A DNA stretch of 50,293 nucleotides from Gammaproteobacteria bacterium (lineage in GTDB: Bacteria; Pseudomonadota; Gammaproteobacteria; Eutrophobiales; Eutrophobiaceae), in contig CANKCB010000014.1 in the NCBI GenBank assembly GCA_947480335.1, forward strand, positions 1-50,293. Reading direction: 5' to 3'. The notes under the pieces were generated by a model. The model did no database searches. It saw only the letters and a program-made list of their open reading frames with translations, and had not been told where the DNA came from. Position numbers and translations under genes: made by a program. Numbering within the stretch: the stretch's first letter is position 1; the number at the start of each line of letters is the position of its first letter. Shown here one piece after another: positions 20,698 through 28,029 of the stretch.

Positions 20698-21288
20698 TCA
20701 TTTAACACTTCGCAGAGGTTCTGGATTAATCAGTGTCACTGAAGCTGGATACAACACACATAACTGCCGGTACATTTGTCTTCTGCTTTCATCATCCAGC
20801 CCCAACTGTAGATATCTCGGATGTGGAACAACCAGTCCTGCATCCTCTCCCATTGCATTGTGTCCATAACTTGACCAGGGATAATCAGCAGGGTGCTCGT
20901 TCAACCCGGCACGTAAGGGCGCGAGCTCAATATACCGGTAGTAAGTGAGCACATGTCGTTCCGTATCTACCGGCACCATGGAATAATGCAATTCAAGTTT
21001 GCTTTGTAAACGCCTGTAGGTAAAGTTACTGTATTGCTCAAATCCGCGCTCAAATTGTTCAATTGCATGAATGGCCGGAATACCCTGCTCACTACTGGCA
21101 AACAGTAAAATCTGGTTAGGCAATAATGCATACGCATGTAATTGACATCCATACTTGTCGACTGAGGTTTTCAGCTTGTTCAGACAAAAATGATAATCTG
21201 ACATCTCATTGAACAACGAAGTGCGATTATAATTTTTGATGGAGATGAATAGTGATTGTACCGATACAGCAATATCCGTTTGCCACAT
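20698..21288 (-). CDS. RAYT-like (REP-associated tyrosine transposase family) protein, nuclease motif lost
   Basis: 196 residues with the overall layout of the Y1 transposase family found as single chromosomal RAYT genes. Recognisable parts are DYHFCLNKLK, then LHAYALLPNQILLF, a helical middle, and YYRYIELAPLRAGLNEHPADYPWSSYGHNA. Family members have HAYVLMPNHVHLL at the second block, where the HxH pair binds the catalytic metal. Here both histidines are replaced (Gln59, Leu61). The motif around Tyr119 is kept. It is probably not an active nuclease but may still bind hairpin DNA or RNA. No terminal repeats flank the gene. Confidence 0.75.
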   Translation of the reverse strand: MWQTDIAVSVQSLFISIKNYNRTSLFNEMSDYHFCLNKLKTSVDKYGCQLHAYALLPNQILLFASSEQGIPAIHAIEQFERGFEQYSNFTYRRLQSKLELHYSMVPVDTERHVLTYYRYIELAPLRAGLNEHPADYPWSSYGHNAMGEDAGLVVPHPRYLQLGLDDESRRQMYRQLCVLYPASVTLINPEPLRSVK

Positions 21289-21337: not shown

Positions 21338-21968
21338 TTATTCAGGAACAATCACGTTTACCTTTTCACCCAGTATCCAGGGACCTATTACACTATTCAC
21401 ACAGGTAGGATCGCCTACGCCTGGTCGGCGATAAGTAACTACGTATTGATACATACCACCAAGTTCCTCACGTCCATGCGACCACATGGCGGCAGCTTGA
21501 ATAATGTCTGTCCCAGACGGAATATTAGTAAAATCAATCGTGGCGTTTGATTCAGCCCCTTGCAGAATAATCCTGCCTTGATTGGCCGGCTGCTCCCTGA
21601 AATCTATAAAAATCGCATAGACAGCAGTACCACAATCTCCAGCGACGTAGGGAAGGCGACTGACAATTCCCTGTTCGTGATACTTAAAACGCGTGCTGGC
21701 AATACCCCGCTCAACTCCCACCTGACCGTGCAAGGCATTAAACACCAGCGTGTAGGGCAACAGGCATGCGTTTGCAGGAACTGCTGATTGAAAGTCATTT
21801 CAGTGAAAGCGAAGTCCAGAATGTGCTCGAAGGGTTCTGTACGCGGCGGGTGGCCGTAACGGTAATCTCCTCGAGACCCTGGGCAAAACTGGGCGCGACC
21901 GGTAATGCAAACAGCCCGATCAACCCTGCCGAAGCGACGAGTGGGGCCAGTATACGAAAGTTCTTCAT
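21338..21968 (-). pseudogene. Secreted protein with TonB-receptor-like N-terminus, frameshifted
   Basis: The first frame (21968-21795, 57 codons) encodes a signal peptide (MKNFRILAPLVASAGLIGLF, ending PSFAQ) followed by GLEEITVTATRRVQNPSS, which resembles the plug start of TonB-dependent receptors. It stops at TGA. A frame shifted by one base continues for 153 codons from 21799 to 21338 with protein-like sequence (GDCGTAVYAIFIDF; GGMYQYVVTYRRPG). Removing one A from the AAA run at 21800-21798 would join them into about 209 residues. There is no beta-barrel, so this is not a receptor. The change may be a mutation or a sequencing error. The family is not recognised. Confidence 0.6.
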
Positions 21969-23363: not shown

Positions 23364-23456
23364 ATAAAGTGTCTTTGGTGAATTGACGAGGCGATAAAGA
23401 TATGCAAAATATCGCTGCGAATAATGACAGGCTGTTTGCTACACATAATACAAGGA

Positions 23457-24239
23457 ATGAGAAAAACAGTGACTTCAGAAAACACACAAGCTGCAATTGA
23501 AGTAAAAGCGCTGGACAGGTATTTCGGTCCTATCCATGCCGTCCGCAACATCAGTTTTTCTGTCCGTCGGGGCGAGGTACTCGGTTTCCTCGGACCAAAC
23601 GGTGCAGGTAAATCCACCACGATGAAAATGATTACCGGGTTTCTTGAGCCCAGTAATGGCACGGTGCTGGTAAATGGCCGCAATGTGGTTGATGAGCCGA
23701 TACTGGCCAAGTCAGCCATTGGCTACCTGCCTGAAGGTGCGCCGTCCTATGGCGAAATGACTGTTGGTCACTTTCTCGAATTCATAGCTGAAATTCGCGG
23801 TTTTAAAGGCGCGGAAAAACATAAACGCGTGACCAATGCGGTTGAGCAAATCAATCTGGAATCCGTTGTGCATCAGACGATAGATACCCTGTCCAAAGGT
23901 TATCGTCGACGGGTTGGTCTGGCACAGGCGATTTTGCATGATCCGGGCATACTGGTCATGGATGAACCGACTGATGGTCTGGATCCAAACCAGAAACACG
24001 AAGTGAGAAGTCTGATCAAGCGAATGTCAGCCGACAAGGCGATCATTATTTCCACCCATATACTTGAAGAAGTTGATGCCGTGTGTACCCGTGCGATCAT
24101 CATTGCGCATGGACAATTGCTGTTTGATGGTACGCCGGCCGAATTACGTGCTCGCGCTGATGACAATGACATCGAACACGCATTTCGAAACATCACTACC
24201 GGCTCCTCAACCAGCTACCGTGAGACCAGCAAACCATGA
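23457..24239 (+). CDS. ABC transporter ATP-binding protein (GldA-like)
   Basis: About 260 residues. It has Walker A GPNGAGKST, signature LSKGYRRRVGLAQA and Walker B GILVMDEPTDGLDP, then the H-loop STHILEEV. This is the ABC-2 export type. The start is uncertain: ATG 23457 abuts an AAGGA, and GTG 23469 lies 12 bases after it. It overlaps the permease gene by 4 nt (ATGA). With the next three genes it forms the Gld-like set (GldA, GldF, GldG, DUF4340) known from gliding Bacteroidetes but also widespread in non-gliding proteobacteria, where the cargo is unknown. Confidence 0.9.
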   Translation: MRKTVTSENTQAAIEVKALDRYFGPIHAVRNISFSVRRGEVLGFLGPNGAGKSTTMKMITGFLEPSNGTVLVNGRNVVDEPILAKSAIGYLPEGAPSYGEMTVGHFLEFIAEIRGFKGAEKHKRVTNAVEQINLESVVHQTIDTLSKGYRRRVGLAQAILHDPGILVMDEPTDGLDPNQKHEVRSLIKRMSADKAIIISTHILEEVDAVCTRAIIIAHGQLLFDGTPAELRARADDNDIEHAFRNITTGSSTSYRETSKP

Positions 24240-24970
24240 ACAATATTATTGCCATACTCAAACGCGAGCTGTACGGTTACTTTGCCACCCCCGTCGCTTA
24301 CGTCTTTATAGTTATCTTCCTGTTCCTGTCCGGACTGTTCACCTTCTATATGGGTGGATTTTACGAAAGAGATCAGGCAGATCTTTTGGCGTTTTTCAGC
24401 TTTCACCCGATGTTGTATCTGTTCCTGATTCCGGCCATCTCCATGCGTCTGTGGTCGGAGGAACGCAAGAGCGGCAGCATCGAGCTATTAATGACATTGC
24501 CCATCTCTACCAGTGATGCCGTCATCGGCAAGTTTCTGGCCGCCTGGTTCTTTGCCGGTATTGCCTTACTGATGACTTTCCCCATCTGGATTACCGTCAA
24601 TTATCTCGGCGATCCGGACAACACTGTCATCATCGCCAATTATCTGGGCAGCTTTTTGATGGCGGGAGGCTTTCTGGCAATAGGCTCGTGTATTTCCGCT
24701 GTAACCAAAAGCCAGGTGATTGCATTTGTAATCAGCATCGTCATCTGCTTCCTGTTCTATGTAAGCGGCTTTCCGATGGTACTGAATTTCTTTACCGGCT
24801 GGGCACCACAGATGATTATTGATTCTGTCTCTGCCGTCAGCGTACTGACTCATTATGATTCCATTCAGAAAGGTATCATCGACTTCAGGGACATCCTCTA
24901 TTTCGTCGTACTGATTTCATTCTGGCTGTATGCCAATGTTATAACCATCGAATCCAAGAAAGCAGATTGA
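24236..24970 (+). CDS. ABC-2 type permease (GldF-like)
   Basis: 244 residues with six membrane helices. It begins MNNIIAILKRELYGYFATPVAYV and contains SEERKSGSIELLMTLPIS, both typical of GldF-type ABC-2 permeases. The start overlaps the ATPase gene stop, which implies coupled translation. It presumably forms the membrane channel for the ATPase encoded just upstream. Confidence 0.88.
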   Translation: MNNIIAILKRELYGYFATPVAYVFIVIFLFLSGLFTFYMGGFYERDQADLLAFFSFHPMLYLFLIPAISMRLWSEERKSGSIELLMTLPISTSDAVIGKFLAAWFFAGIALLMTFPIWITVNYLGDPDNTVIIANYLGSFLMAGGFLAIGSCISAVTKSQVIAFVISIVICFLFYVSGFPMVLNFFTGWAPQMIIDSVSAVSVLTHYDSIQKGIIDFRDILYFVVLISFWLYANVITIESKKAD

Positions 24971-24971
24971 T

Positions 24972-26855
24972 ATGAACCAGAAAAAACTACTGTCCGGAAC
25001 CGGAATTACAATCGCTGCCATCCTGTCGATTGCAGTCATCATCCTGGCTAACGCCACGCTGACAAGTTGGCGACTGGATTTGACTGAAAGCAAACTGTTT
25101 ACCCTGTCTGAAGGTACGCTGAACATTATTCGTTCACCCGCCGAACCCATCACCCTGGATTATTATGTATCCAAAAAATCGATGGCCGATATACCCCAGC
25201 TGGTTTCGTATGCGAATCGCGTGCACGATTTGCTGGACGAATACGTGGCCGAATCCAATGGCAAACTGCGGCTGAATGTAATTGAACCGGAACCGTTTAC
25301 CGAGGAAGAAGATCGTGCCGTGGCAAATGGTTTGCAGGGCATGCCACTGAATGCAGCTGGTGATATGGGCTATTTCGGTCTGGTCGGCACCAACTCAACC
25401 GATGGCGTACTCACCATTCCCTTCTTCCAGTATGACCGCGAACAGCAGCTGGAATACGATCTGACCAAGCTGGTTTACAATCTGGTTAATCCGAAGAAGC
25501 GGGTAATCGGCGTGCTGACTACCTTGCCGGTATTCACTTCTGCTCCACAAATGCCAGCCTGGACCATCTCTAATCTGATATCCGAATTTTTTGAAGTGCG
25601 CATGCTTGATTCCGCACTGGAAATCAACAAGGACCTGGATTTATTACTGATTATCCATCCGAAATCGATGACGGAACTGACGCGTTTCGCTATAGATCAA
25701 TATCTGCTTGCCGGTGGCAAGGCGATGATCTTTGTGGATCCGTTCTCGGAAGCAGACCATCCACAACCGGATCCTGAAAACCAGTATGACGTGCCGGTAA
25801 CCAGCTCGAATTTTGAAAAATTGTTTGATGCCTGGGGCATTTCAATGTCGAGCACTGAAATTGCTACCGATCTGCCATCAGCGATGCGAGTACAGATCCG
25901 CACTGACCGTGGTGTCGAGGAAACCAATTATCTGCCGTGGATGAAACTGGAAACCGCCAACTTCAATCATGATGACTTTGTCACCAGCCAGCTTAAAATT
26001 GTCTCGTTTGGCTCGGCGGGTATACTCAACAAAAAAGAAGGTGCCACGGTAAACTTCAGCCCGCTGTTTGAAACATCAGCCGAAGCCATGCAGTTACCAG
26101 TTGCGATGCTGCAAATGGATCGGAATCCGGTCGAACTGATGAAAGACTTCAAATCTGAAAACAAGAAATTCACACTAGCGGCTCGTCTCAGCGGCAAGGT
26201 CAAGACAGCCTATCCGGACGGCCAACCCCAGAGCGACATTAATAATCCATTTGATCAGGACTACGTTGCTCCCGGTAAAATCCTGACCGAAGGTGATATC
26301 AACGCGATTGTGGTTGCTGACACCGATATGATGAATGATGAGTTCTGGATTACTATGCAAGACTTCTACGGCGTGCAGGTTCCACAACCAATTGCGGATA
26401 ACGGTAACTTTATTATCAATGCGCTGGAAAATATGTCCGGCAGTTCGGATCTGATCAGTCTGCGTAATCGCGGAGAATATTCCCGTCCGTTCACTGTGGT
26501 CGATGACATCCGCCGCAAGGCCGAAGCACAGTTCCGCGAACAACAACAGATGCTGGAAACCAAGCTGGCTGAAACTGAAAAGAAAATTACCGCCTTGCAA
26601 CAGGAAAAAACCGGATCTGATTTACTCATCAGCGATCAGCAACGTGCGGAAATCGACAAATTCAGGATGGAACAAATCAATACCCGCAAGGAACTGCGGG
26701 CGGTCCAGCATGAGCTGCAAAAGAATATCGAACAGCTGGGTACGGTGCTGAAGTTTATCAATATCGGCCTAACCCCACTGCTGATCGTAATCGTGGCTTT
26801 CACGATTGGCATGATTCGTACCCGACGTAAACCTGCACACAACCTGGCGAAATAA
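24972..26855 (+). CDS. GldG-like ABC transport auxiliary protein
   Basis: 627 residues. A membrane helix near residues 8-30 is followed by a large extracytoplasmic GldG / ABC-type uncharacterised domain (SWRLDLTESKLFTLSEGTLNI; DLLLIIHPKSMTELTRFAIDQYL), a coiled coil near residues 515-590 and a second helix near the C-terminus ending in basic residues. One base separates it from the permease stop. Its role in non-gliding bacteria is unknown; membrane-tethered substrate handling in the envelope is an inference. Confidence 0.85.
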   Translation: MNQKKLLSGTGITIAAILSIAVIILANATLTSWRLDLTESKLFTLSEGTLNIIRSPAEPITLDYYVSKKSMADIPQLVSYANRVHDLLDEYVAESNGKLRLNVIEPEPFTEEEDRAVANGLQGMPLNAAGDMGYFGLVGTNSTDGVLTIPFFQYDREQQLEYDLTKLVYNLVNPKKRVIGVLTTLPVFTSAPQMPAWTISNLISEFFEVRMLDSALEINKDLDLLLIIHPKSMTELTRFAIDQYLLAGGKAMIFVDPFSEADHPQPDPENQYDVPVTSSNFEKLFDAWGISMSSTEIATDLPSAMRVQIRTDRGVEETNYLPWMKLETANFNHDDFVTSQLKIVSFGSAGILNKKEGATVNFSPLFETSAEAMQLPVAMLQMDRNPVELMKDFKSENKKFTLAARLSGKVKTAYPDGQPQSDINNPFDQDYVAPGKILTEGDINAIVVADTDMMNDEFWITMQDFYGVQVPQPIADNGNFIINALENMSGSSDLISLRNRGEYSRPFTVVDDIRRKAEAQFREQQQMLETKLAETEKKITALQQEKTGSDLLISDQQRAEIDKFRMEQINTRKELRAVQHELQKNIEQLGTVLKFINIGLTPLLIVIVAFTIGMIRTRRKPAHNLAK

Positions 26856-26858
26856 ACC

Positions 26859-27995
26859 ATGCGTAATAGAAACTTACTGATACTGGCATTCATCACTGTG
26901 GTGATTCTTGTCGCTGCATCAATCAGTAGCCAGAACCGGGCGCCGCAAACCGTCGTGTCGTTGTCACCACTGTTTCCCGAGCTGAAAAACCAGATCAATT
27001 CAGCGACTCAACTGAGTGTTGAATCCGCCGAAGGGACAATCAACATCAATAAACAGGATGATAAATGGCTGATTACTGAAGCAGGCAATTATCCGGCCCG
27101 TTTTGACAAAATAAAGCAGACTGTACTTGCGCTGGCCGACCTGAAACAGGTATCACAAAAAACCAGCACACCCTCTTTGTTCTCCGAACTGGATGTGGCT
27201 GACATTCATGCCGAAAACTCAAAAGCCAGATTGCTGACACTGAAAGATGCGTCAGGCAATGTGCTGGCCTCCTTGATTGTCGGTCGGGACGCAGGTTCAG
27301 GCGCGTATGTGAGAAAGCCGCAAACGAATGAAACCTGGCTGACCAATGGCAAACTGGATATTTCCAGTGATGTTGTGGCCTGGGTAGAACAAAACCTGCT
27401 CGACATCGCTGATGATCGTATCTTTGATACCCGTCTGGATCATCCCGATGGCAAGGTAGTTAGCATTACCCGCGCCAAAGGTGAGAAAGACTTCACCGTG
27501 CTGGATGTGCCCAAAGACAAACAGACCAAGTCAGGTTATTTCGTTAACCAGATTGGCACCATCTTGTCGAACCTGACCATCGAAAATGTGAAAGCCAGAC
27601 AGGGCTTCACCTTCCCGGATACCGCGATTAAAACCACCATACGCACCTATGGCGGCCTGGTGGCTACTATCGTAACGGCCAATGTAGACGGCGCCAATGT
27701 CATCTCGCTCGATTTCAACGTGGACGAAGCATTGCTTACCGCCGCTGCAGCCGCTCCTGCCACACCGGAACAACCGGCAGCAAAAGAAGCGATAGTGATT
27801 GGCGAGCCGGCAAAAGACGCTGCACCGAAGCCCATAGATGTACGCAAGGAAGTTGCTGATCTGAACAGCCGTGTTGGCAGCTGGGTTTACACCATCACCT
27901 CGGCCAAATACGGCCTGCTGGTAAAAGAACCCATTGATGTCATTCAGGACAAGCCTGTCGAACCCGCCAAGACTAAAGAGAAAAAGCCGGGTTAA
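26859..27995 (+). CDS. DUF4340 domain-containing membrane-anchored protein
   Basis: 378 residues with an N-terminal anchor (NLLILAFITVVILVAASI), a periplasmic DUF4340 region that recalls GDIxKqdDgWvi-type repeats (here INKQDDKWLITEAGNYPA), and an Ala/Pro/Lys-rich tail after residue 285. It follows the GldG-like gene by 3 bp and is the usual fourth member of this operon type. Function unknown. Confidence 0.83.
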   Translation: MRNRNLLILAFITVVILVAASISSQNRAPQTVVSLSPLFPELKNQINSATQLSVESAEGTININKQDDKWLITEAGNYPARFDKIKQTVLALADLKQVSQKTSTPSLFSELDVADIHAENSKARLLTLKDASGNVLASLIVGRDAGSGAYVRKPQTNETWLTNGKLDISSDVVAWVEQNLLDIADDRIFDTRLDHPDGKVVSITRAKGEKDFTVLDVPKDKQTKSGYFVNQIGTILSNLTIENVKARQGFTFPDTAIKTTIRTYGGLVATIVTANVDGANVISLDFNVDEALLTAAAAAPATPEQPAAKEAIVIGEPAKDAAPKPIDVRKEVADLNSRVGSWVYTITSAKYGLLVKEPIDVIQDKPVEPAKTKEKKPG

Positions 27996-28010: not shown

Positions 28011-28029
28011 CGGGGAGCAATACTCCCCG
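28011..28029 (+). terminator. Hairpin at end of ABC operon
   Basis: CGGGGAG, loop CAATA, CTCCCCG lies 16 bp after the DUF4340 stop, and flanking TATAA/TTATA can extend the stem. There is no long T run, so it is a probable but weak intrinsic terminator. Confidence 0.5.

Follow-up and report, generated by a model that had tools for sequence, protein, structure and literature searches.

The window analysed here, a stretch of 50,293 nucleotides that forms contig C14 of a 27-contig, 2.42 Mb gammaproteobacterial genome, carries at 23424-27995 a tight operon of four forward-strand genes encoding an ATP-binding cassette (ABC) ATPase, an ABC-2 permease, a GldG-like protein and a DUF4340 protein. The kind is known, as a Gld-type ABC set, and the form found here, which bears DUF4340 and a helical hairpin and has relatives linked to MoxR-Bat genes (MoxR, DUF58, DUF4381, BatA, BatB and BatD), is a variant of it. 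Such linkage was seen in all four groups of GldG proteins. With a confidence just short of even, we read the set as an ATP-driven periplasmic remodelling or assembly machine able to work with MoxR-Bat, and not as a dedicated part of gliding motility.

The genes overlap or lie 1-3 nt apart. The GldA-like ATPase (23424..24239, strand +, longest frame; Pfam, NCBIfam and motifs by eye) shares an ATGA overlap with the gene of the GldF-like permease (24236..24970, +; 244 aa, several transmembrane (TM) segments by profiles and TM prediction). The GldG-like gene follows after 1 nt (24972..26855, +; 627 aa) and the DUF4340 gene after a further 3 nt (26859..27995, +; 378 aa). According to profiles, TM prediction and predicted models, the GldG-like protein would have a periplasmic part between candidate TM helices at residues 12-30 and 592-610, and the DUF4340 protein a periplasmic domain behind a single N-terminal helix at residues 6-24. 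All four products scored above the Pfam cut-offs, the ATPase with ABC_tran (107.8 bits), the permease with ABC2_membrane_2 (45 bits), the GldG-like protein with DUF7088 (79.6 bits) and ABC_transp_aux (PF09822, 202.4 bits), and the last gene with PF14238 (DUF4340; 43.9 bits against a cut-off of 25), in agreement with the first-pass annotation, which had described four genes with overlaps or tiny gaps. That annotation had also let the ATPase begin at 23457; the ATPase is present, but the ATG at 23457 is internal to the frame 23424-24239. Start candidates are 23424, this ATG and a GTG at 23469, and the AAGGA found 12 nt upstream of the GTG leaves the exact start ambiguous. The Walker A (GPNGAGKST), signature (LSKGY), Walker B (MDEPTDGLD) and H-loop (STH) motifs were recognised by eye, so that an ATPase with complete motifs and an ABC-2 permease stand in one operon, as in an ABC-2 type transporter.

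The best NCBIfam models for the ATPase, permease and GldG-like protein were GldA, GldF and GldG, respectively, which upholds the description of the set as Gld-type. However, the scores for TIGR03522, TIGR03518 and TIGR03521 (278.5, 178.8 and 98 bits) all lie under the equivalog cut-offs (402.6, 288.5 and 389.85), and the three proteins are therefore relatives of GldA, GldF and GldG and not members of these families. The DUF4340 protein matched no NCBIfam model.

Linkage of Gld-type cassettes to MoxR-Bat genes

A tree of 68 GldG proteins, obtained by a quick search with support from the Shimodaira-Hasegawa-like approximate likelihood ratio test only, contained a long group that includes the window protein (27 rows, support 100), a fused group (24 rows, 100), a medium group (4 rows, 100) and a short group (12 rows, 87). 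The joining of the four groups was weakly supported; the short group and the long-branched L180 came together with support 100, the placement of L180 being unsure. In the fused type, found in many genomes, permease and GldG are a single protein of approximately 950-1030 residues, and one such GldF-GldG protein has ABC2_membrane, DUF7088 and ABC_transp_aux by Pfam. These fusions are strong evidence that permease and GldG touch.

In seven Nitrospirales loci (L083, L085, L086, L087, L099, L104 and L107), BatD is found approximately 44-394 bp before the ATPase frame in the same orientation; all seven have BatA and BatB ahead of BatD, and six also have DUF4381 and DUF58 there. BatD was found in 9 of the 17 genomes of loci searched (15 of them Nitrospirota by title), namely the seven linked Nitrospirales, L089, whose contig is too short to tell, and Mariprofundus, which holds it on another contig. 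Among the 74 genomes searched in family f189, PF09822 was present in 43 and BatD in 38, the 43 comprising six of the fused type, one of the long type (G302, unlinked) and 36 others. Genomes G382 and G442 have moxR, ATPase, GldF-GldG, DUF4340, DUF58, DUF4381, BatA, BatB and BatD in one direction; G481 runs from moxR through DUF4340 to the start of a DUF58-like frame (23 bits) cut by the contig end, G418 from moxR through the ATPase to GldF-GldG at a contig end, and G475 from the ATPase at a contig start through BatB, with BatD on another contig. The cassette of G386 lies on a 3.2 kb contig that is uninformative for linkage. Hence moxR before and/or DUF58-Bat after was seen for five of the six fused cassettes, which places the fused cassette inside the Bat operon in this family; MoxR was confirmed by Pfam in G442, G382 and the genome of the window. 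The medium-type set of G313, also of f189, has BatD 54 bp before its ATPase frame, while no linkage was seen in the other 35 of the 36 genomes with PF09822 of neither fused nor long type. A short-type set in G159 has the Bat genes next to it in divergent orientation. A separate observation concerns Mariprofundus G302, where an HD-domain gene (L193 15420-16658, strand -) lies between moxR and DUF58, the slot that holds the fused Gld cassette in its relatives.

On the tree, which held four of the seven Nitrospirales and four of the five fused linked rows, four changes were needed for the Bat-linkage label, a single one in each group, and every one of them is forced by starred branches. None of 500 label shuffles gave as few (mean 9.5), a comparison in which near-copies also cluster the labels. 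Linkage that arises repeatedly and in differing orders argues more strongly for a functional tie than a single inherited synteny would. Gld and BatD also occur together in 72 of 299 phylum genomes, with an odds ratio of 3.4 (p 8e-7) when kinship is ignored.

In an open-access literature search, no paper was found that links bacterial GldAFG-DUF4340 sets to Bat. AAA+ ATPases of COG0714 are of the MoxR type. One study reports archaeal GldG-like proteins (arCOG01314/DUF4350) with COG0714 AAA+ ATPase and vWA (von Willebrand factor A) genes, and proposes them as part of a secretion system (PMC5898192). Other papers present MoxR-vWA pairs as known remodelling machines (PMC13036017, PMC9976466), and the function of Bat was still called elusive in Leptospira in 2012 (PMC3557215).

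The GldG-like and DUF4340 proteins

The model of the GldG-like protein had a predicted local distance difference test score (pLDDT) of 82.5 and a predicted template modelling score (pTM) of 0.69. Pfam places a DUF7088 domain at residues 39-139 (25086..25388, +), and residues 175-497 (25494..26462, +) model as a GIFT fold, by fold comparison. Their best matches were OST48 (8b6l_N; Z 19.6 over 226 residues, root-mean-square deviation 3.3, Foldseek E 1.2e-6) and IFT52 (5fmr_A; Z 18.2 over 212 residues, deviation 2.9), and lower-ranked ones include ThuA-like and amidotransferase folds. OST48/Wbp1 and IFT52 structures share this fold with Z scores of 16.9-19.6 and 14.9-18.2, respectively, at 9-14% identity; neither is known to have an ABC transporter partner. 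OST48 and IFT52 are non-catalytic members of large assemblies. One source describes Wbp1, too, as a non-catalytic part of a large assembly, and states, citing Beatson and Ponting 2004, that the GIFT domain was named after GldG and IFT52 (PMC7226087), so that a GIFT fold is expected here. Among solved structures, the only sequence relative of the GldG-like protein was a V-ATPase stalk subunit, matched weakly (E 0.018).

Behind the GIFT domain, the model shows a helical hairpin of modest confidence at approximately residues 508-590 (26493..26741, +), with helices at 508-544 and 555-618 that precede and enter the last TM helix; this fits the coiled coil that had been noticed earlier in this protein. 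In each of the 41 rows of the fused, medium and short groups, the alignment has gaps at R572 and R576, which makes the hairpin peculiar to the long group.

Two residues, D36 and E161, are invariant in the 68 rows of all four groups; position 38 is T in 65 rows and S in the other three. The segment D36-T38 lies just outside the first TM helix, within residues 29-42, which have pLDDT <50 in the single-chain model. We infer that it binds a partner, probably the permease, low confidence in a single chain being what would be expected of such a segment. The long group keeps H229, D256, D450 and D452 in 25, 27, 27 and 27 of 27 rows, where they look like a binding site. The three acids are each kept in 11/12 short rows, whereas fused rows keep them in 0, 0 and 3 of 24 and medium rows in 0, 1 and 1 of 5. 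A binding site at these GIFT residues is thus not general, and their candidacy as a universal active site was rejected.

The DUF4340 protein was modelled with higher scores (mean pLDDT 93.4, pTM 0.83). Foldseek found no match to it in PDB at E <=0.001 (best E 0.018), its best VIA Z was 4.3, with rows mostly covering residues 180-298, and no solved sequence relatives were found. The lack of a convincing solved match is no proof of novelty, and the modelled domain is possibly a new fold. Its occurrence depends on that of GldG in the genomes sampled: PF14238 was present in 102/229 class genomes, a count that the whole-genome Pfam search keeps too low, and all 102 are among the 152 that have GldG (PF09822). 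With profiles built in this study, a DUF4340-like gene followed on the same strand in 65 of 74 GldG genes with >600 bp downstream; these genes were chosen from matches and not at random, and 19 of the counted DUF4340 proteins were themselves in the profile. The nine without such a follower are L126, L127, L133, L139, L145, L158, L173, L176 and L180; in three of them (L133, L139 and L158) a DUF4340-like gene is present, but its longest frame broke the 400-bp rule. In 67 of 81 loci (80 from named genomes and the window), no more than 200 bp separate the GldG and DUF4340 frames; the other 14 are cut by contig ends or were lost through the frame rule. On this gene evidence, the ATPase, permease, GldG and DUF4340 genes form one unit. 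A hint that DUF4340 proteins matter comes from Verrucomicrobium spinosum, where a genome-wide essentiality analysis gives one of them an essential domain (PMC12283558).

Genomic context and distribution

The operon is flanked by a 3-hydroxyisobutyrate-dehydrogenase-like gene upstream and by two glycyl-tRNA synthetase genes downstream. Across the 81 loci, the recurrent neighbours were glyQ (33), glyS (29), an acyltransferase (26), the 3-hydroxyisobutyrate-dehydrogenase-like gene (24), a haloacid dehalogenase (HAD) phosphatase (20) and mnmG (19), the acyltransferase and phosphatase genes (plsC-like and gmhB-like by eye) recurring behind glyQS. These glyQS-type neighbours are read as the synteny of one group of relatives. 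The fused and more distant long cassettes gave only shadow frames and no recurrent neighbours beyond an M48 peptidase gene (HtpX-like by eye), which is near 3/15 fused cassettes (e.g., L123 3839-4741). Directly after the DUF4340 gene, at 28011-28029, lies a perfect 7-bp inverted repeat with a 5-nt loop and without a T run, where the terminator scan made no call. Two frames upstream of the operon, 20698-21288 and 21338-21760 on strand -, had no Pfam match.

A second complete set was found in the same genome, at approximately 177640-181350 of contig C1 (L002, L028), in the order ATPase, permease, short GldG (456 aa), DUF4340 protein (278 aa) and mutM. All 14 fetched short-type loci, including this one, have a mutM-like gene close by in the same orientation, a linkage with no obvious reason. 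This second copy beside mutM, the restriction of the hairpin to the long group and the MoxR-Bat linkage are additions to the first-pass annotation.

The long GldG of the window matched in 24/24 further genomes from its own genus and family and in 7/15 more distant class genomes, three of these weakly, and 21 aligned relatives were 42-79% identical; the gene is therefore not a chance frame. PF09822 was present in 152/229 genomes of the class and in 123/299 of the phylum, and the best 80 of 528 confirmed stretches in named genomes came mostly from gammaproteobacterial metagenome-assembled genomes (MAGs), Nitrospirota, Thiotrichaceae and one Mariprofundus. The earlier statements that the genome is not of Bacteroidetes and that the set is conserved in proteobacteria agree with these results. 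Relatives of the window GldG (43-79% identity) are encoded in five MAG records whose titles name Klebsiella pneumoniae or Asaia bogorensis (L029, L037, L050, L072 and L105); these titles look wrong. Among 72,556 plasmid records, the long GldG matched only L161 (CP109682.1 57659-75296), a 425 kb P. aeruginosa plasmid record in which apparently chromosomal housekeeping genes (dxs, aqpZ and ribA) flank the set. This P. aeruginosa operon has the same four-gene order, with GldG 34% identical over 91%, and differs in its neighbours, mucE and aqpZ. In the literature, PA4040 is named DUF4340 (PMC8088628), and the passages on PA4037 and PA4039, from two further papers, list just one point mutation each. 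A defence or phage origin was considered and rejected, as GldG and DUF4340 had no PHROGs match; in PADLOC the ATPase alone matched, to the ATPase models of several systems.

A proposed periplasmic machine and its alternatives

In the mechanism that we propose, the four genes would encode one inner-membrane complex, with the ATPase and permease as its ATP-driven core and the GldG and DUF4340 proteins as periplasmic arms, the former fixed in the membrane by two TM helices and the latter by one. Permease movement driven by ATP would be relayed by the conserved DLT segment near the membrane to GldG and then to DUF4340, and the resulting mechanical work in the periplasm would remodel or assemble a client in the envelope, perhaps a protein complex that is secreted or glycosylated. 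MoxR-Bat, with its AAA+ ATPase, vWA proteins and BatD, would be an optional partner on the same client or complex. In favour of such a role, a gldG::Tn mutant of F. psychrophilum is disturbed in the secretion of some proteins of the type IX secretion system (T9SS) (PMC5682007). The presumed topology, the physical complex with DUF4340, the transmission of force and the shared client all belong to this inferred part of the scheme. Known systems offer a parallel: NosDFY is an ABC machine that does periplasmic work, and its NosD is a beta-helix protein. The common idea of ABC-driven periplasmic work extends to the type VII machines MacB, FtsEX and LolCDE, as outlined in two papers (PMC5985334, PMC11491553). 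However, no NosD-type profile was found in the GldG-like or DUF4340 protein at E <=0.001, and the permease had no match to the FtsX/MacB family, matching the ABC2_membrane and CcmB families only.

Several observations weigh against a machine that works with MoxR-Bat. Pfam found no MoxR, DUF58, vWA (BatA/B) or BatD among the four window genes, and the Bat operon of this genome (MoxR-DUF58-DUF4381-BatA-BatB-BatD, with moxR directly before DUF58) lies on contig C5 at approximately 89990-96870 (L132 2988-9873), unlinked to either Gld set, so that any joint action would here be in trans. The association of Gld with BatD is weak in the class (76/229 genomes with both; odds ratio 1.85, p 0.036), and an association of DUF4340 with BatD is absent from the class sample (p 0.43), kinship again being ignored in both. 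Of the 72 phylum genomes that hold both, linkage was seen in only five (G313, G382, G418, G442 and G475) and not in the other 67, many of which are fragmented so that contig breaks may hide links; among the matches listed, G159 is the one link for the 76 class genomes. On several complete chromosomes, such as G448 and G524, Gld and Bat are far apart, and 51 of the 299 phylum genomes are Gld-only and 52 Bat-only. With Gld present without Bat in many genomes and the two mostly unlinked, Bat is not required for Gld to exist. Adjacency need not mean function, as the equally tight linkage of the short group to mutM illustrates, and H229, D256, D450 and D452, if they form a binding site, would suggest a ligand better than a pure lever.

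This last point leads to an exporter or flippase, which we regard as a possibility of rather low probability, in which the ABC-2 core moves a lipid or glycan, GIFT binds its sugar and DUF4340 receives it. ABC-2 permeases commonly export, and the nearest solved ATPases in sequence are ABCA phospholipid transporters (4.6e-64), with NosF also related (3.8e-39), although such ATPase kinship is uninformative on substrate. Sugar binding has been proposed for GIFT domains (PMC7226087), and the retention of D256, D450 and D452 in the long (27/27 each) and short groups would suit it; against this, most rows of the other groups lack the acids, D256 and D450 being lost from 24/24 fused rows and D452 from 21/24, and the three from 5, 4 and 4 of 5 medium rows. 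The acyltransferase (26/81) and HAD-phosphatase (20/81) genes behind glyQS in window-related loci also speak for lipid or glycan export, but they follow the synteny of one group, whereas MoxR-Bat alone was seen recurring across the four groups. The first-pass annotation had spoken of a cargo and of a poorly understood system. Our literature searches, which found no tested function for a Gld-type ABC and DUF4340 set, bear out the latter; the notion of a cargo presumes an exporter, and the GIFT scaffold, the obligate DUF4340 and the MoxR-Bat linkage fit a remodelling machine at least as well.

That the Bat linkage is incidental, with neighbours joined by chance and later inherited while the Gld cassette does something unrelated, seems unlikely to us. 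The linked genomes are few and confined to lineages, G313 alone was seen linked among the 36 f189 genomes with PF09822 of neither fused nor long type, the divergent genes of G159 are not in one transcript, and the mutM linkage of the short group is a tight synteny without an obvious functional tie. Yet the tree separates the linkage into four changes, and the Bat genes precede the cassette, follow it, surround it or point away from it. The archaeal DUF4350/arCOG01314 proteins are also reported with MoxR-type (COG0714) and vWA genes (PMC5898192), and DUF4350 is matched barely above the cut-off (31.7 against 30.4) by the short GldG encoded on contig C1 here. A role in gliding motility or the T9SS, as in Flavobacterium, is very improbable. 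The gene set and domain family are the same, GldA, GldF and GldG of Flavobacterium likewise being an ATPase, an ABC-2 permease and GldG in one set. However, the window set falls far under the three equivalog cut-offs and differs by the GldG hairpin and by its DUF4340 partner (in F. psychrophilum, dnaN comes after gldG; PMC5682007), and PF09822 is present in two thirds of the class sample. A search for SprA gave no match in this genome and equally none in any control, and is uninformative here. A further idea, mutual exclusion of the long and fused types, was dropped: no class genome of 229 holds both among the matches listed, but the phylum genome G544 does.

More speculatively, and with doubt prevailing, the Gld-type ABC set and MoxR-Bat might each contribute one half of a single general envelope machine, with an ABC motor and an AAA+ remodeller acting on a shared periplasmic client. 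GldAFG of Bacteroidetes and the archaeal clusters of GldG-like, MoxR and vWA genes would then be specialised forms of it, and DUF4340 its dedicated, possibly new, periplasmic fold. GldG relatives, DUF4340 and Bat are widespread, and the literature searched gave no molecular function for them. Their repeated linkage offers a concrete hypothesis, that of a shared client or complex, and the lineages that hold both modules in one predicted operon could give a function to several uncharacterised families at once.

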